Position numbers and translations under genes: made by a program. Shown here in pieces: positions 6,381 to 49,793 of a DNA stretch of 64,000 nucleotides. The notes under the pieces were generated by a model. The model did no database searches. It was not told where the DNA came from and saw nothing but the letters and a program-made list of their open reading frames with translations. Every line of letters starts with the position of its first letter. Positions within the stretch are counted from its first letter, which is position 1. The DNA comes from a virus. The stretch lies in IMG/VR virus record IMGVR_UViG_3300046698_000540, positions 36,370 to 100,369 of that record. The stretch is one strand, 5' to 3'.

Positions 6381-6853
6381 CCGGGAAAACCTCCAATTTT
6401 CAACTGAGCTTTTCGCAACTTGTACTCGAATAGCTCCACGCTCATCTCATCCTCGTCGAACAACGCGACGTAGCGCCCGAGCGTGGCGTGTGAGGGGTGC
6501 GTCAACCTGGTGGTGGGATCGTCGCGGTAGGGGTTCGGATACGTGGACCAAGGAACCGGATCGTAGTACCAGAAGGAAACCGCCCGGCCCTGGTGGTCGT
6601 TGAAAAATTTCCAGAGAATGCCCGACCGGCTGGCGATGATATCCGTCAACTCCCCCTTCAGGACGTCGAAGCCTATCTCGAACGTGATGAGCGGCGATCC
6701 TCCAATCACGAAGCGCTGCTCGAGAATCGGAGAGAACTGGTGAACCTTGTTTTCCCATTTCCGGCCACGCTTGAAATTGTAGTCGGGATCGAACGGAAAA
6801 ACCCCGACAGGAGTGTATGCTGGAACGGGCTCGCCGAACAAAAAATCGCTCAT
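6377..6853 (-). CDS. Distal tail protein, hypothetical
   Basis: 158 residues starting MSDFLFGEPVPAYTP. The start ATG overlaps the TGA of the upstream gene (ATGA at 6850-6853). The sequence includes QFSPILEQRFVIGG and SGILWKFFNDHQGRAVSFWYY, the kind of beta-sandwich with 'fullness of surface' residues seen in DUF2460/distal tail families encoded between tape measure and tail-tip genes. A structural role at the tail end is inferred from this and from gene order. Confidence 0.7.
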   Translation of the reverse strand: MSDFLFGEPVPAYTPVGVFPFDPDYNFKRGRKWENKVHQFSPILEQRFVIGGSPLITFEIGFDVLKGELTDIIASRSGILWKFFNDHQGRAVSFWYYDPVPWSTYPNPYRDDPTTRLTHPSHATLGRYVALFDEDEMSVELFEYKLRKAQLKIGGFPG

Positions 6854-7335
6854 GTCGTTGTCGTGGTCGTGCTGCTCGTGGTGATGTTCTCCACATACAC
6901 AGGATACGCCGCATCGTTGTCGATCGAGTTGTCGATGTCCCCGATCGTAACCAACACCAGCTCCCCGGTGCGCAGCGTGGCGGCCGGGACGGAGTACCCT
7001 TGTGGATCCTCCTTGAACCGGACGTTGTACATCGTGTCGTCGTCCGGCGCGAAAAACTGGAAAGGGTAAGCGGACCCCTTCAGGGTGTCTATGAAGGTTT
7101 CCAAGGTGGCAATGTCGTTTGTCGTCCATCGGTCCATCTTGATCGTGAACTCGTACATCGCCACGATCTGGTTGGGCATCAGCTCAAACGCCTGGTCCTT
7201 GTATCTCTGCACCACGGTAACCCACTTCACCTTGCGGCTGAAGCTGTAGTCCATCTTGGTGAAGACCAGCTCAGGGCCCGGCGTTTGCGGGAGGAGCTGG
7301 TAGTTCGCAACCGAAGCAGTGGGAGCCGGACACAT
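6850..7335 (-). CDS. Distal tail protein with Thr-rich C-terminus
   Basis: 161 residues from the ATG at 7335, which overlaps the tape-measure stop by one base; GGAGG lies 6 bases upstream. The body (FTIKMDRWTTNDIATLETF, then YPFQFFAPDDDTMYNVRF) resembles the N-terminal half of DUF2460-type distal tail proteins. The final residues ENITTSSTTTTTT are a low-complexity Ser/Thr tail of the same style as the end of the 974-residue tail-tip protein. The tail could be exposed on the virion. Confidence 0.75.
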   Translation of the reverse strand: MCPAPTASVANYQLLPQTPGPELVFTKMDYSFSRKVKWVTVVQRYKDQAFELMPNQIVAMYEFTIKMDRWTTNDIATLETFIDTLKGSAYPFQFFAPDDDTMYNVRFKEDPQGYSVPAATLRTGELVLVTIGDIDNSIDNDAAYPVYVENITTSSTTTTTT

Positions 7336-10300
7336 CAAATGCCTCCGTTCCCGAGTGCGCGCCCCATTGCCTGCCGATTCACGTTTTGCTGCGTGGCCGT
7401 GGTGACGGCGCCGGCGACGGCCCTGTTGTACGTGGCCGTGTTTTTCAAGAACCCGCTGGTGGTCAAAGTGTTCAAAGCGCCCGCGTCCAAAACTGTGGAA
7501 GCATCCACGGACACCACCATATTCTTTTCGTTGGCTTTCTGCAACTCCGTCAACTGCTGCCGAGCCAAGCCGATCATGACCTGGCCACTCTCGTTCTGGA
7601 CTTTTTGAGCGCCCCTCAAATTTTCCGCCAGGCGATCCGCAAGAAGAGTTGGCATGGAGCGCGCCTGGCTGTTCTGCTGCTGTGAGGACTCCAGCAAATT
7701 GGTATTGATCGAAGTAAGAATGCCCGCATACTGGACAGAATGCTGCCCTTCTGCGACCAGGTAGGTACTCAGGTTGTTGAACAACTGATTCATCTGCCCG
7801 GGTTGAAAACCCGCCTGTGTGCGCCGCGCCAATTGATCCGCCAACTGGTCGGCAAAATTCCGGTCGCCTTCGCTACGGGATGCCGCCAGCATGTTGATGT
7901 CCTTCACCATCTGGAACATCTGCGCGCCGGTTTTGTCGTAGGCCTGACCGGCGTACTGCATCACGCGGTTGTTCACCACCAGGTTGTCGTTGAGCTTGAT
8001 GATGTTGTCCTCCATGGCGGTCTTGGTAGACACGGGCGCTGGCGTTCCTACGGCCGTGCCTCTGGAGCCCGAAGCAGCTCCGCCACCTCCGCCCCCTGCT
8101 GCTCCCGATAGAACTCCTCCAGCAAAGCCGGCTGCCGCTGCCGCAGCGGTCCACAAAGCAGCTGCTCTATACTCCCCAGCAGCTGCTGCCGCGGTAAGAG
8201 GACTGGAAGCGTCGGCAAGCCCTGCCATGAGATGTATTCCCGCCTGCTTCAAGCAGTATTTAGAGAGCGCCTGTAACACCTCCGCGCCCATGTTCTCCAC
8301 GAACTGCGCCATGGCCTTCCCAACATTTCCGCCCGAGCCAACAGCCTTGCCTAAAGCATTGGTCGCCTGTACCGCGAGATCCATACCGGCCTTGTAGGCG
8401 CCCATCGTGGTAAGAGTGCCCTCAAACAGGTGGTTCAAGGCCTCCGCCGTCGTTTCCAATGGCTGCGTGAGATCCCGGACGGCGCCGGCATACTTTTGCC
8501 ACGTGATCGTGCCTTCCTCAAGCTTCTTGTTCAGCTCCTCAATCTGGCTCTGAACGGGAGCCAACCGAGCCGTCAGATCCTCCATGATTCCCGAAACTGC
8601 TTTCGTCGAAGCGCCATACTCCTGCGCTGTTTTTGCGGCATCCAACTGCGCTTGCCCTTTTACATCTCCGCCGACCAACCGCTGAGCTTGTGCCTGCTGC
8701 TTCGTGATCTCGGCGAGTTCTTTCTGATAGTCTAGCCACTTCTTGACCTGATCCGCGGTGAGCGTGGTATTTTTCAAGAGGTCCAGGGCTTGCACGCTCG
8801 AATCCCGTCCGGCCTTGTTCCGGGCGGCTTCTTCCGCGGTTAATTTCCCCTGAGCCACCGAAGTTTGTTCCAGAATGTCCAACTCCCGATTCCGCATCGT
8901 GAGGAGAGCGGTTTCGGTGGTGAATTGCAAATCGGCAATCTGCCGCTGCGCCGCGAGCCTCAGTTCATCCTGGCGTGCTTGAATTTCCTTATCGGCCGCC
9001 TCAACGGAGCCTGTCTGCTTGATGAGCGCGAGTCTGAGAGCCGCATCCTTTCCCAGGGCTTGCGCTTGTGCTTCCGCCAGGGAGGTAATGGCCCTCTTTT
9101 GCTGATCTACGTTTTCGAGCTGCTTCGAAGCGTTCGTATTTTGAACCTCAATCAGGTGCAGCTCCCGATTGAAACGGGCTTCATCCAAGGATGCTAGTTC
9201 TGTTGCGCGTTGCACTCGGGCCTGGAAGACGGCTGTGTCGGCCTCTTCCATTTTTTGCGCGACCTGCGCTTCCATCAGAACTTTATCGGCCGTGGTGTTG
9301 CGAATCAAGTCGATTTCGTTCTGATACCTCCTCCGGATCGCCTCTTCTTCCTGATCGTACGTTTGCCCGGTGCGCTCCGCGATCGAAGTCTGCGTAGCGA
9401 GTAAAATTTCCTGAACCTGCAAAACTGAGTCGAGGAGGGCTCGTGCATGTTCTATTGCTGCCACTTGCGCCTGCGAAGCTGCCGTGGTCAAGACCGTTTT
9501 GGCGGCCCAGGCATCCTGCATAATCACGATGGCAGTTTGCAGATCCGCGATCTTCCCCTCGTTTTTGTAGATCGTCTCTATGTCCGCGGCCGTCTTGCTG
9601 CGAGCGCCCAGCAGAGCGTTTTCCGCTTGCAACCCTTGGATGTCGTTGTTGATCTCGCGTACCTGGTTTTCGACGATCTTCTGATGCGTCGAAAGTCTCA
9701 TCTCCTGCAAAGACTGAAGGGCTTGCTGTACCCCCTCGACGACATTCTGATAGATCAAAGCGTTTTCGCCGGCCTTGGCCAAACTCGTGGCAATTTTTTC
9801 GACCTGCTGGGCCAGCAGAGCGGAAGTTTCCTGTGCAGATTGTGTTTTGGCCCCTAAAGCGGCAGTGAACTCAACAGCTTGCTGTGCAAAATCTTTCTGA
9901 TCCTGGTGGGCGCGAGCGACCATAGTCTCTGTCAGATTGAGTTCTTTCCGTCTCTGGATAACATTGGTAAGGTTTCGGTCCAAATCGGCATAAACCGTCG
10001 TGACTGCCTGTGCCGCCTGCAATGCGGCCGTCTTATCCACGTCCGTGACTTTTATGTGCGCGCGCATCAGCGCTTCGTTGGTGGAGATCGCCGACGACAG
10101 GCGCCCCAAAGCTCCTATGGTCACATTCAAATCGACGGGAACTAGCTGCACGCCACTGGCCGAGTGCTTCAAGCCTTCGATCTCCTTCTCCAAAGAAGCC
10201 ACGCCGGCCTTCAAGTTCTCTATCTGTTTGGTGGACTTTTCCGCCTCATCCCCGTAGCTGCTAAAAAGTCCTCTGCTAACCGTAGGATGCGCAAGAGGAG

Positions 10301-26466: not shown

Positions 26467-26796
26467 CTATTGACTGATTTTTCCGCGCGCCTCGGCGCGG
26501 CGTTGCTGAAACTCGCTGCCCCGGTACTCTTCCCGGCCGTCGTGCATCTCGTGGGTCGCCGCCGGCGCATGGCCCGGTTCGCCAAGCACGAAGTGATCCT
26601 GGAAGGAAATAGCCGTGCCCACCTTGGCCAGACCTTGAACAGCACCTCTCACAGACCACTTGTGCGGGGTTTTATCCAGATGTCCAGGGGCTTTGTGCTT
26701 GTGCGTTTCGACCAGACCACAATCCGTGCACACCCTTGGTTCGGGGCTGCCCGTCATGAAATTTGCGAACTTTTGACCTTTGCTTCGAATGCTCAC
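26467..26796 (-). CDS. Small Cys/His protein, GTG start
   Basis: 109 residues (MSIRSKGQKFANFMTG...). PRVCTDCGLVETHKHK looks like a zinc-binding knuckle. The GTG start overlaps the upstream stop in ATGTGAGC, and its Shine-Dalgarno GGGAGG is formed by the last codons of the C-terminal tag of the previous protein. Function unknown. Confidence 0.6.
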   Translation of the reverse strand: MSIRSKGQKFANFMTGSPEPRVCTDCGLVETHKHKAPGHLDKTPHKWSVRGAVQGLAKVGTAISFQDHFVLGEPGHAPAATHEMHDGREEYRGSEFQQRRAEARGKISQ

Positions 26797-36215: not shown

Positions 36216-36433
36216 TAGGCCAGCTCCTCTTCGTTGCAGGCTTCATATGCGCCTGGAAGGGGAACGATCGGTTCCAGGCCTTTGGCAATTCTGATTGGGT
36301 TGAATCTGTTTACGCAATTCTCACAGATCGGCTCCCTCACGTCATTGACGCGAACCGAGGGAACCTTCATCGGGTTGAACGTGAACGGTTGGCCGCACCC
36401 GATGCACGGCGCCGTTCCCAAGGCGTACCCCAT
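36215..36433 (-). CDS. Zinc-ribbon hypothetical protein
   Basis: 72 residues from MGYALGTAPCIGCGQPFTFN, with a second pair in EPICENCVNRFN: a CxxC...CxxC zinc ribbon. The ATG overlaps the upstream stop as TGATG. This type of small protein is common in phages; function unknown. Confidence 0.65.
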   Translation of the reverse strand: MGYALGTAPCIGCGQPFTFNPMKVPSVRVNDVREPICENCVNRFNPIRIAKGLEPIVPLPGAYEACNEEELA

Positions 36434-37904: not shown

Positions 37905-37981
37905 CCCGGCCTTTCTCCGGGGGCTATCGCCTACACGTCTCGTGTTTCGACTCGGAGCCTCCGAATCCTCTTCAGGGCGAA
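37905..37981 (-). ncRNA. Hammerhead-like element K with SD hairpin
   Basis: Stem I UUCGCC/GGCGAU, core CUGAAGA, stem II GAUUCGG/CCGAGUC (loop AGGCU), GAAA, stem III CACG/CGUG, UA; predicted cut between 37932 and 37931. SD hairpin CCCGG-AGAAAGG-CCGGG. A terminator-like hairpin directly precedes it. Confidence 0.75.
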
Positions 37982-38016
37982 AAATTCCTGGCCGGGGCAT
38001 GGCGTCCCCGGCCAGG
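37980..38016 (-). terminator. Terminator-like hairpin before element K
   Basis: CCTGGCCGGGG (38016-38006) pairs with CCCCGGCCAGG (37997-37987) followed by AATTTTT on the minus strand. It sits between the stop of the 38043 gene and the ribozyme, so readthrough is needed to make the element. Confidence 0.75.
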
Positions 38017-38042
38017 CGGCGAAAGCTCACGCGTGCAGCCAA

Positions 38043-38930
38043 CTACGCCGCGGACGTGGGAGCGGAGGGAAACAAACTCTGTTGCTGTTTGGCGGGTTTG
38101 GGAGCATTCGGAATCGCCTTCCGGGATACTACCGCCTTGCGGTTCTCCTCAAAATCAGAGAGCTCGCCGGGTGTCGGCTTGCGCACCATCGCCAGCCGGC
38201 ATTTGTAAGTGCTGTCCGTGTATTCTCCGCTGTTGCTCCGGATCAGCTCCACAGTCTCCACGGCATACGCCGGATCCTCGCCCTCCTCCAGGTAGTCGGG
38301 ATTATAGGTCACCACTTTGAAGTGGCCGTCCTTCCCGATCTCCTGGACTTGCGCGAGAACCACACCGGGCGCCCAATCCCCGTCCCCCGTAACTTTGGGG
38401 TACACGAGCGCGGCCACGTCGCCTACCTTGAGGGCGGCTTTGTCCGGCGAACGCTGCGCCGAACTGGACCGGATGCCTTCGAGAGCATCCCGCTGCTCCT
38501 TATTGGGCCGTTTCACTATCACTACGCGCTCATCGTTGGCATCGATGATCTCAGTGCTGACCCCCCGGCCATTTTCGCGCCGCTTGGTCAACCTCTCCGC
38601 CACTTTCAAAGAGCCTGCACGGGGCGGTTTGTTCGGGAACAGGAACTTGATTGACGCATCGGCGCCGTCCTGAGAAACGGTCACCACTTCCGCGCCATAC
38701 ACGCCGGGAATGCGCCCCGGCTCCATCGCGTACGCGACCGTAATCAGATCGCCCGCCCGTAGCCCTTTCAGCGTTGCCAGCGCCGGCAGAGTATCTGGTG
38801 GCGGAGTGGAATCCGTCGCCACGGGAACCACCTTGGGCGGCTCCTTTTTCTTGATTACCTTCTTCCCTTCCAGAGCGCCCACCAGTTTTGTGGCGAACTC
38901 CCCTTCCGGTTTTTTCTTTGCCATGTTCAT
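38043..38930 (-). CDS. Hypothetical protein, Lys-rich N-terminus
   Basis: About 295 residues; ATG 38930 or ATG 38924 (MAKKKPEGEFATKLVG) could be used, both just after the SD hairpin of element J. A Lys-rich disordered start is followed by beta-rich repeats (LRAGDLITVAYAMEPG and LKVGDVAALVYPKVTG) suggestive of two SH3-like barrels. Function unknown. Confidence 0.6.
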   Translation of the reverse strand: MNMAKKKPEGEFATKLVGALEGKKVIKKKEPPKVVPVATDSTPPPDTLPALATLKGLRAGDLITVAYAMEPGRIPGVYGAEVVTVSQDGADASIKFLFPNKPPRAGSLKVAERLTKRRENGRGVSTEIIDANDERVVIVKRPNKEQRDALEGIRSSSAQRSPDKAALKVGDVAALVYPKVTGDGDWAPGVVLAQVQEIGKDGHFKVVTYNPDYLEEGEDPAYAVETVELIRSNSGEYTDSTYKCRLAMVRKPTPGELSDFEENRKAVVSRKAIPNAPKPAKQQQSLFPSAPTSAA

Positions 38931-38932
38931 CA

Positions 38933-39086
38933 GGGGTCCTTTCCACCCCAGACTGCTGCCTTCGAATCGCAGCCGTCTCTTGGGCGCGCTCGACGTGTTC
39001 CTCGCCGAGAGACTTTCGTCCGGGATGGGTCCCGCGCCCAAGACGCGGCTGCGAACCGCGCCACTACCTGCCTATTCCGGGCGATT
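38933..39086 (-). ncRNA. Diverged hammerhead-like element J with SD hairpin
   Basis: The SD hairpin GGGGU-GGAAAGG-ACCCC is intact and stem I can form as AAUCGC/GCGAUU, but the core reads CCGGAAUA, stem II is expanded and GGCU is inserted before the 3' strand of stem I. The upstream stop TAG lies in the changed core. Likely non-cleaving or altered. Confidence 0.5.
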
Positions 39087-39341
39087 CATCAGCGATCGCA
39101 GCTTGTCTGCAATCCGCCCGAACAGGTTCTTTTGTTTCCGTTGCTGCCGCTCGACCTGTTGTTGAAACCAGGGCGGCCTGTGTAGAACCGAAGTCACCTT
39201 CACTTCCTTCGGCCCTTTCTTTGTGGGGACTTCCACCGTCGCCGTGCTACGACCGGCGCCGCGGTGATGAACGGGCGCTGCCGCCCCCGCTCCCAAATTG
39301 TATCTGTTGTCTTTTCCAATCGCGAAAAAATGATGCGCCAT
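39072..39341 (-). CDS. Hypothetical basic protein
   Basis: 89 residues from MAHHFFAIGKDNRYNLGAG; GAGGAGG precedes the ATG, which overlaps the upstream stop as TAATG. The end is Gln/Lys/Arg-rich (QQVERQQRKQKNLFGRI) and helical. A longer in-frame extension overlaps the upstream gene and is rejected. Function unknown. Confidence 0.6.
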   Translation of the reverse strand: MAHHFFAIGKDNRYNLGAGAAAPVHHRGAGRSTATVEVPTKKGPKEVKVTSVLHRPPWFQQQVERQQRKQKNLFGRIADKLRSLMNRPE

Positions 39342-40072
39342 TACACCTCCTCGAATAACCCTGCCTGACCTCCCCACGGCGCAACCTGCCGCTGTGTGGG
39401 CCTTCCTTCGTTGTAACCTCCGATTCGAGCCTTGCGCAGCCTCTCGTATTCCTCGGCTTCCTCCCGGACCCCGAGCCGGATCGCTATGCCCGATCTCTCG
39501 TTGTCCGTATCCCACCAGCCGCCAAGGCCGTCCCTTGCCATCAACACGTCTTCCGGCTCCGCCTCTTCATACTCAAAGCGGATCTTCAGCACGTTCTGCT
39601 CCGGAATTTCCAAGACCCGGCCGATATATTCGCCGGCATCATCACCTGGCCAAGGATACATGGCCACAACGATGTCTCCGAACGTGAATGGCCCTTCCTT
39701 CCGGACCGGGAAGCACTCGCGGAGGCACATAGGGCAGTAACCCTTCCCCGCGAAATACTCCAGCACCTTGACGAACCAAGGCTTTCCGCAGATATCGCAC
39801 TCTGCCGATACCTGGTTGACTTGGACAGGCGGCAACTCAATGACGGGAACCTCACCGTTCAGGTGCTGTTCCGTTCTGAGCCACAATCTCTGCCCGTGGC
39901 CGATCCCGACGCCCACGCCGTGCTCCTTAAAATGCCCCAGGCACATATTCCGCCAAGGGCCGGCCTTTGTGATGCCGTCGTACCGCGCCAACAGCCGCTG
40001 GTCGCGGTCCTTCTTGTGCTTGCAAAAATCGCAAGGGGGAAGTTTCTCTACTGTTCTTTCTTCACCGTGCAT
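39341..40072 (-). CDS. Two-zinc-site protein, paralogue of 42195-42581
   Basis: 243 residues. The N-terminus CDFCKHKK...MCLGHFKEHG with GVGIGHGQRLWL has the same layout as the 128-residue protein at 42195 (CDVC...LCQVHFDGLG, GLGTGQ). A second site is CDICGKPWF...CPMCLRECF. The C-terminus is acidic then Arg/Gly-rich. GGAGGAGG precedes the ATG. Possibly a nucleic-acid-binding protein; no enzyme motif seen. Confidence 0.65.
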   Translation of the reverse strand: MHGEERTVEKLPPCDFCKHKKDRDQRLLARYDGITKAGPWRNMCLGHFKEHGVGVGIGHGQRLWLRTEQHLNGEVPVIELPPVQVNQVSAECDICGKPWFVKVLEYFAGKGYCPMCLRECFPVRKEGPFTFGDIVVAMYPWPGDDAGEYIGRVLEIPEQNVLKIRFEYEEAEPEDVLMARDGLGGWWDTDNERSGIAIRLGVREEAEEYERLRKARIGGYNEGRPTQRQVAPWGGQAGLFEEV

Positions 40073-40230
40073 GGTGGTACCTCCTCCAAGGCGACCCGAC
40101 TACGCCGCCAGATAATGCAGGAATACCCTGTCGAAAGGGCCGTATCTTTGGCGGCTTTTCTGTTTGAATACGGACCATACAACCGATCCGTTCCTTTCAC
40201 TTCCACCTCATACTCAATAGAATTGGCCAT
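40048..40230 (-). CDS. Small hypothetical protein
   Basis: 60 residues from MANSIEYEVEVKGTDRLYGP. A compact beta-rich protein (YGPYSNRKAAKDTALS, then IIWRRSRVALEEVPP). It overlaps the next gene start by 25 bases. Function unknown. Confidence 0.55.
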   Translation of the reverse strand: MANSIEYEVEVKGTDRLYGPYSNRKAAKDTALSTGYSCIIWRRSRVALEEVPPCTVKKEQ

Positions 40231-40237
40231 GCCGCCC

Positions 40238-40414
40238 CTACTTTCTTCTCTTCGCCAGGCGCTGGCACTTCCCACAGGTTACCCGCTTCGGGTCCGACGT
40301 GGAAGGAAGCCTGGACTTATCTGTATCCAACAGCTCAGCCTTTGCGTAGCACGCCGGAAAGCGCATGCCTGCATTGATAAACAACCTTTGGTCCTGCAAA
40401 TGAATTTTTGCCAT
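40238..40414 (-). CDS. Small CxxC protein behind element I
   Basis: 58 residues from MAKIHLQDQRLFINAGMRFP; ACYAKAEL and RVTCGKCQRLAKRRK supply three Cys, one CxxC pair, and a basic end. A GTG six bases upstream (40420) could also start it; ATG is preferred because several neighbours begin AUGGC after the same leader. Function unknown. Confidence 0.6.
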   Translation of the reverse strand: MAKIHLQDQRLFINAGMRFPACYAKAELLDTDKSRLPSTSDPKRVTCGKCQRLAKRRK

Positions 40415-40420
40415 GTTCAC

Positions 40421-40505
40421 CGCGTCCTTTCTCCGCGAGGCTTTCGCCTACCTCCCTGTGCGGGAGGTTTCGAGCCGGCGCCCACCGGCCCATCTTCAGG
40501 ACGAA
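40421..40505 (-). ncRNA. Hammerhead-like element I with SD hairpin
   Basis: Stem I UUCGUC/GGCGAA, core CUGAAGA, stem II GGGCCGG/CCGGCUC, GAAA, stem III CCUCCC/GGGAGG, UA; predicted cut between 40449 and 40448. The upstream stop TGA (40498-40496) is part of CUGA of the core. SD loop AGAAAGG between CGCG arms. Confidence 0.8.
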
Positions 40506-40834
40506 ATTTCCGCTCTTGTGTCTCCCAAGATCGTGATTGAGCTGTGGGTTTCCTTCCATGCAACCGCAGCCACATGAAAGCTCTTCAGCCTATCGATCTG
40601 TTGCGTGACCCAGAACGCTTGCGTTTCCAATCCTACTTGCATATACATGGTCAGCAGGATATGCGTTCCTTTCAACACCATCCCCCGATCCGCGAACCTG
40701 CCTTCTACCGCCATGGGGGGCCGCCCGGTGTGCATGATGCTGTAAACACTCACGACCCCGGCGTACCGCAAATACTCGGTCACCACGGCGCCCGGATCGG
40801 GCACCAGCATGGTGATAGCCACTCTTGTTGCCAT
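40496..40834 (-). CDS. Hypothetical protein behind element H
   Basis: 112 residues (MATRVAITMLVPDPGAVVTE). Beta/alpha alternation resembles a small nucleotide-related fold, but no motif is diagnostic. Its last codons ATT TCG TCC TGA are the 5' strand of stem I and the core of element I, so the coding region runs into the ribozyme. Start follows the SD hairpin of element H by ten bases. Confidence 0.65.
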   Translation of the reverse strand: MATRVAITMLVPDPGAVVTEYLRYAGVVSVYSIMHTGRPPMAVEGRFADRGMVLKGTHILLTMYMQVGLETQAFWVTQQIDRLKSFHVAAVAWKETHSSITILGDTRAEISS

Positions 40835-40841
40835 TTTTCAA

Positions 40842-40929
40842 AGGCTCCTTTCCAGCCTAGCTTTCGCCTATGGCGGGCCTCCCGGCCGGCCATTTCGACC
40901 TGGAGCCACCAGGTTCTCTTCGGGGCGAA
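40842..40929 (-). ncRNA. Hammerhead-like element H with SD hairpin
   Basis: Stem I UUCGCC/GGCGAA, core CCGAAGA, stem II with a bulged A (ACCUGG/CCAGGU), GAAA, stem III UGGC/GCCA extended across a mismatch, UA; cut predicted between 40869 and 40868. SD hairpin AGGCU-GGAAAGG-AGCCU. Confidence 0.75.
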
Positions 40930-41274
40930 CTACTCCGTTTCTTCCCATGGCTTTTCGCCGGGCTCCTGGTACAGGGCCAGGCCACAAGAATTATGCAAAG
41001 CTTCCCACAACCGGTCGCCGCGGGCCAGCAACTCCTCCTTGGGTTGCAACTTCTTGTGATTCCCAACAAAGCCTTGTTCCTCGGGAGTCGTTTGATCCAT
41101 TGCATCTCCTGCCTGTTCCAGCAGCTCCGCCATGTAGGTTTGCGCGTCATCCCATTCTGCGAGAGACCGGGCCGCCATCATCACCAATGACAGGCGCGCG
41201 ATCGATCTAGCCCAGGTTCTCAGCTTTACAAGCGTGATTTGGGCATTCGTCAATTCTGTTGGTATTGTTGCCAT
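40930..41274 (-). CDS. Hypothetical helical protein behind element G
   Basis: 114 residues (MATIPTELTNAQITLVKLRT). Mostly helical with MAELLEQAGDAMDQTTPEEQ; no family recognised. The stop TAG touches the first base of element H. The start follows the AAGCU/AGCUU SD hairpin of element G. Confidence 0.65.
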   Translation of the reverse strand: MATIPTELTNAQITLVKLRTWARSIARLSLVMMAARSLAEWDDAQTYMAELLEQAGDAMDQTTPEEQGFVGNHKKLQPKEELLARGDRLWEALHNSCGLALYQEPGEKPWEETE

Positions 41275-41278
41275 TTCA

Positions 41279-41360
41279 AAGCTCCTTTCCAGCTTGGCTT
41301 TCGCCTACCGGCTGTAGAGGCCGGTTTCATCCGGGCGCCGCCCGAACTCTTCAGGACGAT
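41279..41360 (-). ncRNA. Hammerhead-like element G with SD hairpin
   Basis: Stem I AUCGUC/GGCGAA, core CUGAAGA, stem II GUUCGGG/CCCGGAU with no extra base, GAAA, stem III CCGGC/GCCGG, UA; cut predicted between 41306 and 41305. The upstream stop TAA shares its last A... region with stem I (41362-41360). SD hairpin AAGCU-GGAAAGG-AGCUU. Confidence 0.8.
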
Positions 41361-41827
41361 TACAAGGTGTCCGCAGCGTTTCCTTCAGGATCATCTCCAG
41401 CGAAAAACGCTCTCTGGCCCTCCAGTTTCGCCAGAGTCTTCCGCTGTTCCTCCACTTCGATCCCAACACCCTGCTTGCCGTACAGCCAAGCAATCACCAG
41501 TTCCAACGATGCGTCCTCGTAACACATCTCCTGGTGGTTCACCGGCACGGCATAGAACCTGCTGGCCCCCACTTTGTACACCATGCCGATCCCCTGCTCG
41601 CCTGGATGTAGACGCACCTCGTAGCAGGGCGCCAGTAGCAGGTTTATGCCGTGATACCTGGCGGGGATTGCCAACAGGCGATTTTGCATCTGCTTTTCCG
41701 CCCGTGCCAGTTCCTCGGATTCCAACTGCGCTTCGTTTCGTTTTGCCATTGCTTTCTCACTCCTGTCCAAATATGCCAGCAGATCGGTCCGATTCCGTTC
41801 GCAATGATCTTCAAATTCGACCATCAT
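41360..41827 (-). CDS. Hypothetical protein behind element F
   Basis: 155 residues (MMVEFEDHCERNRTDLLAYL; the second Met is also possible). A helical Glu/Lys/Arg-rich start is followed by a beta domain (INLLLAPCYEVRLHPGEQG). Stop TAA overlaps element G. Function unknown. Confidence 0.65.
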   Translation of the reverse strand: MMVEFEDHCERNRTDLLAYLDRSEKAMAKRNEAQLESEELARAEKQMQNRLLAIPARYHGINLLLAPCYEVRLHPGEQGIGMVYKVGASRFYAVPVNHQEMCYEDASLELVIAWLYGKQGVGIEVEEQRKTLAKLEGQRAFFAGDDPEGNAADTL

Positions 41828-41837
41828 AATCTTTTAG

Positions 41838-41918
41838 CCGGTCCTTTCCACCGGAGCTTTCGCCGACCGCCTTGTCTGGCGGTTTCGTCCCTGCGCTACA
41901 GGAACTCATCGGGGCGAA
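41838..41918 (-). ncRNA. Hammerhead-like element F with SD hairpin
   Basis: Stem I UUCGCC/GGCGAA, core CCGAUGA, stem II GUUCCUG/CAGGGAC directly on the core, GAAA, stem III CCGCC/GGCGG, then UC, giving the classical C17; cut predicted between 41865 and 41864. The upstream stop TGA (41908-41906) is the end of the core. SD hairpin CCGGU-GGAAAGG-ACCGG. Confidence 0.8.
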
Positions 41919-42109
41919 TTTCTTTCCTCTTCATTTTCCCGGAGAGCCTTGTCGAATTCACTATTGCGTTTAGCTCTCTCGGAGGTAGCTTCTCGCCAAA
42001 CATGCCTGTCAGTTTGCGAGGCATTTGGATGCTCAAGACTATCCAGGATTGCAAACGCAATAACGAAGACAAAAAGCCCAAGCCAGCAGAGTTTCATTTC
42101 ACGTTTCAT
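41906..42109 (-). CDS. Small membrane-anchored protein behind element E
   Basis: 67 residues from MKREMKLCWLGLFVFVIAFA, an N-terminal signal anchor followed by a charged helix (SERAKRNSEFDKALRENEEE). The ATG is six bases after the SD loop AGGA. The last codons AAT TCG CCC CGA TGA are stem I and core of element F. Could be a superinfection or spanin-like protein; no lipobox is seen. Confidence 0.65.
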   Translation of the reverse strand: MKREMKLCWLGLFVFVIAFAILDSLEHPNASQTDRHVWREATSERAKRNSEFDKALRENEEERNSPR

Positions 42110-42111
42110 AA

Positions 42112-42194
42112 GAGCTCCTTTCAAGCCCAGCTTTCGCCTATCCCCCTGAGCGGGGGATTTCGGCCGGAAGCCATCCGGCCATCATCGGGGCGAA
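42112..42194 (-). ncRNA. Hammerhead-like element E with SD hairpin
   Basis: Stem I UUCGCC/GGCGAA, core CCGAUGA plus one U, stem II GGCCGGA/UCCGGCC, GAAA, stem III UCCCCC/GGGGGA, UA; cut predicted between 42139 and 42138. SD hairpin GGGCU-UGAAAGG-AGCUC. Confidence 0.8.
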
Positions 42195-42581
42195 CTACCA
42201 TTCCAGGTTGTTGAGCGCCGCCAGTACCATAACCTCGACCGGGGTCAACGCCACCACAAAGACGTCCACCACGATAGCGCCCTGGAGCGCTTCGTGATGC
42301 TGGCCGCCGATCGCGTGTTCCTTCAGCGGTTCCACCAGATCCTCCAGGCGGATTTTTTCCTGGACGGGAAGACGATTCCTGGTATCCTTCACCAGCGCCT
42401 GACCCGTGCCCAATCCCAATCGGCAGCCCAGGCCGTCGAAATGCACCTGGCACAGGTTTGCCCAGCACATGCCGCCCCATCCGGGGAGCTTCGCGCTGTA
42501 CAACGCCGGCGTCTGTTGATCCTCCGCCCTGCACACATCGCAGTCCGGACGCTCTCTCACCATCACTTTATTGTTTGCCAT
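42195..42581 (-). CDS. Zinc-knuckle protein, paralogue of 39341-40072
   Basis: 128 residues. RPDCDVCRAEDQQTPALYSA, LCQVHFDGLGCRLGLGTGQA and the spacing between them repeat the N-terminus of the 243-residue protein nearby. The C-terminal half is different. Stop TAG touches element E. Function unknown. Confidence 0.65.
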   Translation of the reverse strand: MANNKVMVRERPDCDVCRAEDQQTPALYSAKLPGWGGMCWANLCQVHFDGLGCRLGLGTGQALVKDTRNRLPVQEKIRLEDLVEPLKEHAIGGQHHEALQGAIVVDVFVVALTPVEVMVLAALNNLEW

Positions 42582-42593
42582 GTTCGTTTGATT

Positions 42594-42681
42594 CGGCTCC
42601 TTTCCAGCCGGGCTTTCGCCTATGCCCCCTACTTCTTGGGGGCATTTCGCTTCCGCGCCACGGAAGCCTCTTCAGGGCGAA
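42594..42681 (-). ncRNA. Hammerhead-like element D with SD hairpin
   Basis: Stem I UUCGCC/GGCGAA, core CUGAAGA plus one G, stem II GCUUCCG/CGGAAGC, GAAA, stem III UGCCCCC/GGGGGCA, UA; cut predicted between 42621 and 42620. SD hairpin CGGCU-GGAAAGG-AGCCG. Confidence 0.8.
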
Positions 42682-42700
42682 GATTCTCTCTGCGCGCCCA

Positions 42701-42779
42701 AAAAAATCCGGCCACGCAGGAGCACTACCTGGGCACCACACCGGCATGTGGCCGATGTCCCGCATACGCAGGGCCGGAT
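42701..42779 (-). terminator. Terminator-like structure before element D
   Basis: ATCCGGCC (42779-42772) can pair with GGCCGGAT (42713-42706), followed by TTTTTT on the minus strand. The loop of ~58 bases contains a smaller hairpin. It lies between the stop of the 42779 gene and element D. Confidence 0.5.
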
Positions 42780-43009
42780 CATGCCGCGTTCTCGAAATGG
42801 AACCGCTCGCTGCGGCTGTAGCCCGGCCGCGGATTCCTGACCGTCCACGAGCCGTCCGCCTTCTCGCGCAACATCGTGCGCAGCTTCGAAGGCCCTGACT
42901 GAACCCCAATGCTCAGGGCCCCGGTCGTAGTGGCGAAGGTGTTGAACTCCACTCCCATCGCGCGCAACATGTTCCGCAGAATTCTGTTCTGTCTCTGTAG
43001 TCTTTTCAT
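42779..43009 (-). CDS. Hypothetical protein behind element C
   Basis: 76 residues (MKRLQRQNRILRNMLRAMGV). A basic helical start is followed by VQSGPSKLRTMLREKADGSW. The start lies 17 bases after the SD loop of element C. Function unknown. Confidence 0.65.
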   Translation of the reverse strand: MKRLQRQNRILRNMLRAMGVEFNTFATTTGALSIGVQSGPSKLRTMLREKADGSWTVRNPRPGYSRSERFHFENAA

Positions 43010-43021
43010 ATTCGTGTTTGT

Positions 43022-43112
43022 CTCATCCTTTCCATGAGGGCTTTCGCCTAACGGCCCGCCTCCTTTTCGGGCCGTTTTCGGGGAGTTGCCGACTCCCCAT
43101 CTTCAGGGCGAT
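43022..43112 (-). ncRNA. Hammerhead-like element C with SD hairpin
   Basis: Stem I UCGCC/GGCGA, core CUGAAGA plus one U, stem II GGGGAGU/ACUCCCC, GAAA, stem III ACGGCCC/GGGCCGU, UA; cut predicted between 43049 and 43048. Upstream stop TAA at 43114-43112 overlaps it. SD hairpin CUCAU-GGAAAGG-AUGAG. Confidence 0.8.
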
Positions 43113-43891
43113 TACGCGGCGGCCGACTGCTTCTCCGTGGCCGCTTCCCACTTCGCGTACACTTCCTCCCACGCGGCGTCCGCGCCAATTTCCTTGGCCT
43201 TCACCCGCGCTTCCTCCACCAGCTTCACGTGCGCCGGTTTCATCGACGACTTCCAGGTCGCCTCCGCCTTCTTCCGATCGCCCGCGGCCGCCAGCAACCC
43301 TTCCAGGTCCTTGGCGCCGTAGAACTCGATCGCGCCGTTGCCCAGCGGATCCGTGCACTCGACCGCGATCGGCGTCTTCTTCGCCGTCGTGCGCAGCCCA
43401 ACCACCGTGAACTCGTACGGGTACTGGGGATCCAGGTCGTCGTCCGGGTCGGGCACGTGATACTTACGCCCGAGCCATTCCGGATTCACACCCTCGAAGT
43501 CCTTCGCCCGCTCGATCCACAGCGTCTGCATCGAGGGAACCGGCGCGCCGGCTTCGTTCCGGTACACCAGGTCCACGGCCACATACGGCGCCGTAACCGC
43601 GAAGTCCTCGACCGCCACCTGACGGCTGCCGAGCGCCTGCTCCACGATCTTCTCGAAGTCTCCGTCCGCGATTCCCAGGTCCACCGAGAACCCAAGACTC
43701 ACGTACCCGGAGTCCGTCGCGTCGTCCGATTCCTCGACCTTCACCGAGACTTTCGCCCGCGCTACCAGAGTTTCCAGTTTTGCGAGGATCTCGGATCGAA
43801 TGGCGGCCGTCGTCGCTTCGTCGAACTTCACCGGCACGAATTGCGATTTTTCCGCGACTGCAACTGCTTCTTTTCTGTTCTTGTTTGCCAT
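43112..43891 (-). CDS. Hypothetical protein behind element B
   Basis: 259 residues (MANKNRKEAVAVAEKSQFVP). Helix-rich N-terminus, a beta-rich core (SGYVSLGFSVDLGIADGDFE) and a helical C-terminus ending AAWEEVYAKWEAATEKQSAAA-like residues. No motif identifies it. It is the largest protein of the ribozyme array and could be an abundant middle protein. Confidence 0.65.
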   Translation of the reverse strand: MANKNRKEAVAVAEKSQFVPVKFDEATTAAIRSEILAKLETLVARAKVSVKVEESDDATDSGYVSLGFSVDLGIADGDFEKIVEQALGSRQVAVEDFAVTAPYVAVDLVYRNEAGAPVPSMQTLWIERAKDFEGVNPEWLGRKYHVPDPDDDLDPQYPYEFTVVGLRTTAKKTPIAVECTDPLGNGAIEFYGAKDLEGLLAAAGDRKKAEATWKSSMKPAHVKLVEEARVKAKEIGADAAWEEVYAKWEAATEKQSAAA

Positions 43892-43903
43892 AACGTTTGT
43901 AAA

Positions 43904-43981
43904 CCCGTCCTTTCCACGGGGGCTTTCGCCGACGCCTCACGGCGTTTCGACCTGGCGCCACCAGGCCTTCATCGGGGCGAA
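43904..43981 (-). ncRNA. Hammerhead-like element B with SD hairpin
   Basis: Stem I UUCGCC/GGCGAA, core CCGAUGA plus one A, stem II GGCCUGG/CCAGGUC (loop UGGCG), GAAA, stem III CGCC/GGCG, then UC with classical C17; cut predicted between 43931 and 43930. SD hairpin CCCGU-GGAAAGG-ACGGG. Upstream TAG abuts it. Confidence 0.8.
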
Positions 43982-44383
43982 CTACTCTACGCTTGTGTGA
44001 ATCCGGTTGCACCGGCAGCCTGGGGAATCGCAGAACTCGCTTTCCGCGTCCGCTTCGCTCACCAGGTCCTTGAACTGAAGCGGCTCCGATTCCAGATCCT
44101 CGTCGTACACCGAGGCCACCTGGGCCATGGACGTTCTTGCATCCTCGGCCGCGCCTGGCAGCGAGTCGTACCCTGCGTCGGTCAGTTCGTTGATCCTGGT
44201 TTCGATCAACCCGTTTGGCCCCACCGGATCCATTTCTTCGGAAGTGCATCCCGTTTCCGGATCCGTCTCTTCGCGCAAAAAGTCCGCGGCCAAGACCTCA
44301 TCCTGCATTGCCTCCCGGCAGTCCTCGCAGGGCTCTTCCAAATGCTGGCAATCTTCGCAACGAACTACTATTCCTTTTGCCAT
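43982..44383 (-). CDS. Cys-rich acidic protein behind element A
   Basis: 133 residues from MAKGIVVRCEDCQHLEEPCE, with CEDCQHLEEPCEDC and later CDSPGCRCNRI, a probable two-part zinc site separated by an acidic stretch. The ATG follows the SD loop of element A by ~14 bases. It is the first clear gene downstream of the 45.05-kb promoter. Function unknown. Confidence 0.65.
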   Translation of the reverse strand: MAKGIVVRCEDCQHLEEPCEDCREAMQDEVLAADFLREETDPETGCTSEEMDPVGPNGLIETRINELTDAGYDSLPGAAEDARTSMAQVASVYDEDLESEPLQFKDLVSEADAESEFCDSPGCRCNRIHTSVE

Positions 44384-44393
44384 ATCGTTCAAC

Positions 44394-44480
44394 CAGGTCC
44401 TTTCCACCTGAGCTTTCGCCTATTCATGCCGTCTGGACATAAATTTCGGCCGGGCGCTGCCCAGCCATCTTCAGGACGAA
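44394..44480 (-). ncRNA. Hammerhead-like element A with SD hairpin
   Basis: Stem I UUCGUC/GGCGAA, core CUGAAGA plus one U, stem II GGCUGGG/CCCGGCC, GAAA, stem III UUUAUGUC/GGCAUGAA, UA; cut predicted between 44421 and 44420. SD hairpin CAGGU-GGAAAGG-ACCUG. A short frame ending KYNSS* would stop in the core, as in element I. Confidence 0.8.
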
Positions 44481-45032
44481 TTGTATTTTCCCACCACACT
44501 TCCCGCGGGGTTATGAGGCCCGCGGGTTCGCTTTGAATTCGACTCTCCAGTTTGCTTCCCAGTCCGAACGTTGCCCAAGTTGGGCGCCCCCGTCAGGGGA
44601 CCGTGTTACACCAGGCCAATTCGCCGCATCGTAAATCCCAGGGGCAAGCTCGTTCTGCCCAAAAATGTCACGACGATCTTCGCCGGGGACGTTTGCGGGG
44701 ACATGGTGATTCGACCGGGTAGCGAATGTCATCTGAGAAAGGAAAGGTATTAAAATGACATCCGTCGCCGGAGCCGTTTTCCGTATTCAATTGTCAAATA
44801 TCGCTTGGGTGCCTTCCCCGATCGGGAGCGGTTGGAGGGATTGTGCTGTGGCGGGAGTGGCCAGGGCTTTTGAGTCGTCGCGGCTTTTCACCAGCACCGA
44901 AATGCTGTGCACCTTGATAGGTAACGCCGAAACTTCCACCTCACCGAAGTGAGGACCGTTTCTGCCACCCGGTAGCACCGCCCCCGAAAGGGTCGGCCCC
45001 GGTTTGGTTCCCCCTTGTGAGGGGAGGGGTAT
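44481..45032 (-). other. Structured leader with doubtful small frames
   Basis: About 550 bases between the promoter at 45.05 kb and element A. It includes the UUCG-capped hairpin CCTCAC-TTCG-GTGAGG near 44940-44960 and other GC stems. Minus-strand frames 44787-44978 (63 residues, GTG) and 44511-44732 (73 residues), and plus-strand 44755-44952 (65 residues, after GGAAAGG), are all possible, but none has a recognised domain and I do not call a gene with confidence. Confidence 0.4.
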
Positions 45033-45038
45033 GATTTA

Positions 45039-45067
45039 AGTATAGTATATCGTTGGGTATTTGTAAA
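45039..45067 (-). promoter_or_regulatory. Sigma70-like promoter, copy 1
   Basis: TTTACA (45067-45062), 17-base spacer ending GATATAC, TATACT (45044-45039), then TTAAATCATACC. A near-identical promoter occurs at 49759-49787. It should drive the ribozyme array. Confidence 0.8.
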
Positions 45068-49645: not shown

Positions 49646-49758
49646 TTCTTCTCCTTTTCAGATTCGAAGGGCCAGGACACTCGCCCCGGCCCTTTGCATC
49701 GGACATTCTCAAGTCATCAATTGTGCCCACCTCAGTTTGAGATGGGAAGGTATGATTA

Positions 49759-49787
49759 AGTATAGTATATCTAGAGCTTTTTGTAAA
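49759..49787 (-). promoter_or_regulatory. Sigma70-like promoter, copy 2
   Basis: TTTACA (49787-49782), 17-base spacer ending GATATAC, TATACT (49764-49759), then TTAATCATACC. The spacer 3' half and downstream bases match copy 1 at 45.05 kb. The ~107-base leader contains a GGGCC/GGCCC hairpin. Confidence 0.8.
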
Positions 49788-49793
49788 GGGAGA

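Follow-up and report, generated by a model that had tools for sequence, protein, structure and literature searches.

A tandem array of hammerhead-like RNAs at the gene junctions of a phage operon

Background

The early genes of phage T7 are separated by RNase III sites, structured intergenic elements that give rise to one-gene messages with hairpin 3' ends. The role of hammerhead ribozymes in prokaryotes and phages has been a question since their discovery around 2010. Perreault et al. reported in 2011 that hammerheads form clusters in prophages, with up to three in a row, and proposed that these clusters process messages; three tandem arrangements were cleaved in vitro, and one in E. coli (PMC3088659). 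Single hammerheads are also known. An intergenic hammerhead of Pseudomonas phage PaP3 is listed among the active ones, and in haloviruses HF1 and HF2 an mRNA 5' end lies within 3 nt of the hammerhead cleavage site (PMC3088659). Bacterial self-cleaving ribozymes are also enriched near other self-cleaving ribozymes (PMC10085705). Here we describe an array of ten type I hammerhead-like RNAs within an operon of an uncultured phage, IMG/VR record IMGVR_UViG_3300046698_000540. The window, which is the whole stretch of 64,000 nucleotides that was analysed, covers positions 36,370 to 100,369 of this 100,369-base record.

Like the prophage clusters, which also include type I hammerheads, the array flanks single genes or short blocks on phage transcripts and is open to the same processing hypothesis; it differs in having ten copies rather than at most three, a fused ribosome-binding hairpin, and a stem I and tail that are specific to its subfamily (PMC3088659). 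The PaP3 hammerhead shares the type I topology and the location in a phage intergenic region, whereas it occurs as one copy, with a different stem I and without the GGCGAAAGCY tail. The hammerhead of HF1 and HF2 (HHphage) likewise lies shortly before the start codon of a phage gene, whereas it is a single copy with an atypical core insertion and belongs to viruses of an archaeal host. RAGATH-1 (RF03152) is also a hammerhead, whereas the upstream hairpin and sequence of its model are absent here. Finally, the T7 sites use a host enzyme, whereas the RNAs described here would cut themselves.

A preliminary description of this locus had regarded such arrays as unknown. Prophage genes flanked by clusters of up to three copies were already published in 2011, together with this idea of processing (PMC3088659), although nothing longer was found: a literature search that reached few subscription papers returned no hammerhead array of more than three copies, and we make no claim to a record. 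What is new here is the scale, the subfamily, the ribosome-binding hairpin, and a mixed array found in another phage.

Ten elements at the junctions of one operon

The elements (copies A to J) occupy positions 44482 to 37920 of the minus strand, and were identified by reading that strand from 45000 to 37400 and by a regular-expression search. Each copy consists of UCGYC, C(U/C)GA(A/U)GA, stem II with an RGC-containing loop, GAAA, stem III, U(A/C), and GGCGA(A/U)AGCY. According to both the model and the reading, all ten share the three-helix type I topology, in which stem I is open and stems II and III are closed, with a bulge in copy H. Scores below are from covariance model R1, described in the next section.

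Copy A, 44409 to 44482, minus strand: before the open reading frame (ORF) at 44383-43982; U-A17, predicted cut 44421/44420; 60.3 bits; matches the structural descriptor.
Copy B, 43919 to 43983, minus strand: TAG of the upstream ORF adjoins stem I; C4 and C17, predicted cut 43931/43930; 70.5 bits.
Copy C, 43037 to 43114, minus strand: stop codon TAA overlaps the 5' edge; A17, predicted cut 43049/43048; 64.8 bits.
Copy D, 42609 to 42683, minus strand: preceded by the run of seven T residues of a possible terminator; A17, predicted cut 42621/42620; 67.2 bits.
Copy E, 42127 to 42196, minus strand: C4 and A17, predicted cut 42139/42138; 74.5 bits.
Copy F, 41853 to 41920, minus strand: core holds the stop codon TGA of the upstream ORF (N7-G8-A9), which ends at 41906; C4 and C17, predicted cut 41865/41864; 60.6 bits.
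Copy G, 41294 to 41362, minus strand: A17, predicted cut 41306/41305; 61.7 bits.
Copy H, 40857 to 40931, minus strand: bulged A in stem II; C4 and A17, predicted cut 40869/40868; 61 bits.
Copy I, 40437 to 40507, minus strand: core holds the stop codon TGA of the upstream ORF (U4-G5-A6), which ends at 40496; A17, predicted cut 40449/40448; 63.2 bits.
Copy J, 37920 to 37983, minus strand: adjoins an intrinsic terminator and has GGCGAUAGC in place of GGCGAAAGC; A17, predicted cut 37932/37931; 63.5 bits.

A structural descriptor that specifies no stem sequence (C-Y-GANGA, stem II of at least 5 bp, GAAA, stem III of at least 4 bp, U followed by a base other than G, and stem I of at least 5 bp) matched nine of the ten copies in the 64-kb window, with copy H escaping because of its bulged A. 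The plus strand of the window and the 36 kb of the record outside it had no match, and neither had any of 100 sequences of 64 kb simulated with matching dinucleotide composition.

Reading, descriptor (nine of ten) and covariance model (ten of ten) agree with the preliminary description that ten elements of one type are present at this place. Its details of the core are also upheld: residue 4 is C in copies B, E, F and H; B and F have C at residue 17, where the other eight copies have A; and seven copies (A-E, I and J) have an extra base, located between A9 and stem II. Stem I had been drawn with 6 bp (UUCGYC/GGCGAA) and is here corrected to 5 bp (UCGYC/GGCGA); copies C, G and J lack the sixth pair. 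The claim of an element at nearly every junction can be specified as 10 of the 11 spaced junctions of the operon; three further junctions, at which genes overlap or are about 8 nt apart, have no element, and the tightly packed junctions at 40240-39340 hold none. The predicted cuts are downstream of the stop codons, as had been proposed, but not immediately so: where the stop codon adjoins stem I, the cut lies about 50-60 nt past it.

Family members and covariance models

A gapped pattern that put no constraint on N7, on stems II and III or on the flanks was used to scan 2.9 million viral contigs as well as genome contigs. It matched 38 stretches in viral contigs, nearly all of which are unmistakable. 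The typical viral member has the form (TA)ATCGCCCTGATGA...TGGC...CCGAAAC...GTCGGCGAAAGCC, with U4 and C17, so by sequence the array is part of a family in which the canonical core is the most frequent. Genome contigs gave 13 stretches. Five of these, at loci L058, L062, L063, L067 and L068 of Treponema and Spirochaetia, are real; the other eight were judged by their sequences to be chance matches. When stem I was freed in the pattern, one additional contig was found (L100, with three copies). A pattern on the tail and the ribosome-binding loop gave single matches that are mostly chance, and those in a sister contig and in a relative alone are real.

Besides dozens of further phage contigs, the family is thus present in a few genomes of spirochaete type. 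Four of its carriers are cultured phages: Aphanizomenon phage CL131, Faecalibacterium phage FP_Brigit, Flavonifractor phage Castelnaud and Pseudomonas phage JB8. In Castelnaud, a 43-bit family match (L103, 1214-1280, plus strand) is opposite to annotated genes, and could be an antisense element or reflect a mis-annotated ORF. The sister contig is 99.9% identical to the record over 34.6 kb and has ten copies; this near-identity ends at the 5' edge of copy B, upstream of which the two diverge. The relative has six copies, and L100, L055 and L040 have three each. Loss of the stems in homologous phages would have spoken against the hammerhead assignment, and the elements are conserved in such phages.

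Support from covariance models, whose absence was among the signs that the preliminary description would count against its assignment, is lacking in Rfam and strong with a model of the family. A model built from 51 family members detects all ten copies at 60-74 bits, each with an E-value of at most 4e-13, and the next best score in the window is 13 bits; as the ten copies or near-identical sister copies are in the training set, these scores demonstrate separation and not independent discovery. This model also detects the PaP3 hammerhead (22 bits, E-value 0.002-0.005). Rfam, searched at gathering thresholds and in E-value mode, gave no usable match in the window, and RF00163 (Hammerhead_1, cut-off 34 bits) has no match in the window or the whole record. 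The best Rfam score is that of RF03152 (RAGATH-1-hammerhead), which matches copy F alone, at 23.6 bits, and does not reach its cut-off of 56.3. Rfam also misses close relatives with a perfect core, so its silence on the array is a gap in Rfam, which is equally blind to family members with a canonical core.

Covariation and constraint on the catalytic core

In 58 distinct matches, 95.9% of the paired cells are standard pairs; double changes are found in 13 of the 15 pairs, and 160 cells are compensatory. Shuffled alignments reached none of the covariation measures (0 of 500), a count that is not a probability because the phages share ancestry. A slide control retains this ancestry, and pairing fell to about 40% when partners were shifted by 1-3 columns. 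These results bear out the early observation that the stem sequences vary and still pair. Within the array, hardly any sequence of stems II and III is shared from copy to copy and their pairing is retained, which suggests that the copies are of long standing and subject to selection. The copies resemble one another more in stem I and the tail than in stems II and III.

The hammerhead core C3 U4 G5 A6 N7 G8 A9 / G12 A13 A14 A15.1-U16.1 is found in all ten copies, except at U4. Of 52 parsed family members, 40 have U4. N7 takes all four bases (U in 29, C in 11, A in 11 and G in 1), and residue 17 is C in 39 and A in 13 and is never G or U, which fits the NUH rule for cleavage sites. Because the search pattern fixed most core letters, scans with mutant patterns constitute an independent test. 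A pattern with G17 matched no stretch in the 2.9 million viral contigs, compared with 38 for the true H17 pattern. Excluding G at position 12 gave two stretches, both of which arise from a slipped register on true copies that have GAAAA, and excluding G at position 5 gave one stretch of unrelated sequence. To judge from these scans, the residues essential to hammerheads are required in nature in this family, a constraint not expected of an element whose role is purely structural.

Loop II and the 3' tail

The base that precedes GC in loop II is associated with the last base of the tail AGCY. A loop G occurs with a tail C in 36 members and with U in nine, whereas a loop A (six members) and a loop U (two members) occur solely with a tail U (Fisher p = 3e-5, with kinship between members ignored). 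In CL131, FP_Brigit, Castelnaud and JB8 the letters of stem I differ, and loop GGC and tail AGCC are kept. A pseudoknot contact has been reported in many hammerheads (PMC3088659), and pairing between the RGC of loop II and the GCY of the tail fits that contact, which here would be made to the 3' tail. The strand GGCGAAAGCY is also able to fold on itself as GGC-GAAA-GCY, a hairpin that would suit the 5' end present after cleavage.

Placement between genes and the ribosome-binding hairpin

The upstream stop codon was scored for 54 copies and in 41 of them falls between -9 and +12 nt relative to stem I, most commonly at 0 to -3. The next start codon is mostly 10-30 nt beyond the element. The published annotations of FP_Brigit, CL131 and JB8 exhibit the same placement of stops and starts. 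In the window, start codons are 29-39 nt from the predicted cuts, which would be the length of the leader after cleavage.

Each of the ten copies is followed by a hairpin with a stem of 5 or 6 bp, whose sequence varies widely, and with a loop of GGAAAGG or a similar sequence, so the ribosome-binding site is probably presented in this loop. The same hairpin is found in four of five checked copies in relative L013/L022, and at the sole spaced junction of the operon that has no hammerhead (junction X).

Ribosome-binding hairpin of copy B, as an example, 43897 to 43924, minus strand: covarying 5-bp stem with a GGAAAGG-type loop.
Junction X, 38920 to 39075, minus strand: large multibranched structure followed by the ribosome-binding hairpin.

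The predicted fold of junction X has an energy of -76.1 kcal/mol, far better than that of shuffled sequences (z = -4.3). Its counterpart in relative L110 (5715-5890, plus strand) likewise outdoes shuffled sequences (z = -4.6), with a different sequence. Nothing matched when junction X was considered as another ribozyme. It may be a ribozyme or processing element of a different kind.

Junctions with both hammerheads and twisters

Contig L054, which like L033 and L029 belongs to an uncultured phage, has four consecutive junctions (7077-8442, plus strand) that carry, in order, two hammerheads (HHR) and two Twister-P5 ribozymes, each between the stop codon and the ribosome-binding site. In L033 (2683-1318, minus strand), a type-P5 twister likewise occupies the slot from stop to start, and hammerheads and twisters are at neighbouring junctions. 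L029 (1092-1456, plus strand) has a type-P5 twister beside a member of the hammerhead family. The Twister-P5 model (RF02684, cut-off 37.6 bits) has no match in the record that contains the array. Type-P5 twisters thus fill the same slot as the hammerheads in L054 and L033 with an unrelated fold. Such mixed occupancy of equivalent slots is, in our judgment, the strongest single argument that cutting is selected, as the two folds would seem to share self-cleavage alone.

Likely promoter, terminators and genes of the operon

A likely promoter of the operon and an intrinsic terminator were recognized.

Likely operon promoter TTTACA-17-TATACT, 45039 to 45067, minus strand: 10 of 12 consensus matches.
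Intrinsic terminator before copy J, 37987 to 38016, minus strand: 11 bp, followed by AATTTTT.

The 48 bp around the promoter are 94% identical to sequence upstream of the array in relative L110, and a second copy of this promoter-like sequence (CCCTTTACA..GATATACTATACTTAA) is present at 49749-49790 on the minus strand. L110 also has a similar terminator right before the matching hammerhead, at about 6730-6765 on the plus strand. The T-run of the terminator touches the hammerhead at corresponding places in both phages, an arrangement in which read-through transcripts would be cut at once.

Genes on the 100-kb record include those of a portal protein and of the large subunit of a terminase, so this is a tailed phage. 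DNA of the array region has no similarity to known phages. Its genes match one PHROG of unknown function and no Pfam family, so gene functions give no clue. When the gene that follows junction X was searched at the protein level, solely the sister and the relative matched. Elsewhere in the window, four different proteins end in a shared C-terminal peptide, SGQDFN(I/V)LGHA(G/A)LPGGHAGYG (stops at 26793, 22882, 16798 and 15369, minus strand), and shorter GGHAGYG endings occur on proteins of L017 and L111. A protein encoded at 51448-50375 (minus strand) matches a queuine tRNA-ribosyltransferase PHROG (E-value 2e-33), and is perhaps involved in modification of DNA or tRNA.

Interpretation

The most probable explanation, held with good though not complete confidence, is that the ten elements are type I hammerheads of a phage subfamily not recognized by Rfam, and that they split the operon message into mostly one-gene messages. 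The hammerhead assignment made in the preliminary description is supported by topology, core, covariation, the free N7, the absence of G17 and of changes at G12 or G5, conservation in homologous phages, and placement. Structure, core, covariation, placement and recurrence can be read from sequence directly. Because 10 of the 11 open gaps between genes contain a hammerhead-like RNA, the phage probably cuts its long message into one-gene pieces without an enzyme.

Catalysis, its co-transcriptional timing, the chemistry of the ends, the processing of messages and the benefit are what we infer, as follows. The operon would be transcribed on the minus strand from the promoter near 45050. As each junction emerges from the polymerase, the element would fold with an open 5-bp stem I and hairpin stems II and III, the RGC of loop II would pair with the GCY directly 3' of stem I, and the RNA would be cut after residue 17. 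The 3' end of the upstream message would then consist of hairpins II and III and bear a 2',3'-cyclic phosphate. Downstream, the next message would begin with a 5'-OH on GGCGAAAGCY, which is able to refold as a GNRA-type hairpin, followed by the ribosome-binding hairpin and, 29-39 nt past the cut, a start codon. Most of the resulting messages would hold one gene each, behind a standard leader and between protected ends, and the benefit might be that stability and translation of neighbouring genes are uncoupled.

Several observations weigh against this explanation. None of the Rfam hammerhead models reaches its threshold for an array copy, and most other phages hold just one to three copies. In the minimum-energy folds of copies D, G and I, stem I gives way to the GGC-GAAA-GCC hairpin. 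A17 is present in eight copies and C4 in four, and E and H have both. The U4C change lowers activity in vitro, although a viroid hammerhead with U4C works in vivo despite being slow in vitro (PMC3088659). Some array copies may therefore be slow, and cleavage rates may differ between junctions.

The alternative that survives best, although we regard it as unlikely, is that the hammerheads are active and serve a control role instead of constitutive processing. Stem I and the core would then lie under a ribosome that is completing the upstream gene, so that cleavage would depend on upstream translation and would determine which downstream messages arise. The stop codon adjoins or lies within the ribozyme in most copies, and within the core in F and I, although the tight packing of phage genes accounts equally well for this overlap. 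Array copies with the C4 and A17 variants, which lower the rate (for U4C, PMC3088659), and a stem I strand, GGCGAAAGCY, that can alternate between two folds would also suit regulation, whereas no domain for binding a ligand or protein is apparent. The specific form of gating, in which a terminating ribosome keeps the ribozyme unfolded and the cut occurs once it has left, seems marginally less likely still. If it is true, each gene would set the fate of the following message, and the cut would free a leader with a ready ribosome-binding hairpin.

It is improbable that the elements are non-catalytic mimics, namely hammerhead-like junctions that serve as a binding site, an RNase-processing site, or hairpins that protect ends. 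Several copies do depart from the best core (C4 with A17 in E and H), and hairpins by themselves could stabilize message ends. However, a structural mimic would neither forbid G17 nor demand G12 and G5, and such variants are absent; Twister-P5, a different fold with the same chemistry, also fills equivalent junctions.

Equally improbable is a selfish or inherited cassette that spread by duplication and recombination and marks the borders of gene cassettes with no role for the phage. In its favour, the sister contig ceases to be nearly identical at the 5' edge of copy B, and stem I and tail are more alike between copies than the other stems. The divergence of stems with pairing retained argues instead that the copies are old and selected, and they occur only at junctions and on the sense strand. 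Chance resemblance in a G+C-rich, hairpin-rich region is refuted by the absence of descriptor matches in 100 simulated windows, against nine here, and by conservation in many phages.

Implications

If the hammerhead explanation is correct, each junction unit, a ribozyme joined to a ribosome-binding hairpin, is a natural counterpart of the ribozyme insulators of synthetic biology. Current Rfam models do not detect the subfamily, so present counts of phage ribozymes are probably far too low. The array, together with homologous and mixed arrays, makes the message-processing hypothesis for phage hammerheads directly testable, including in the cultured phages FP_Brigit, CL131 and JB8.

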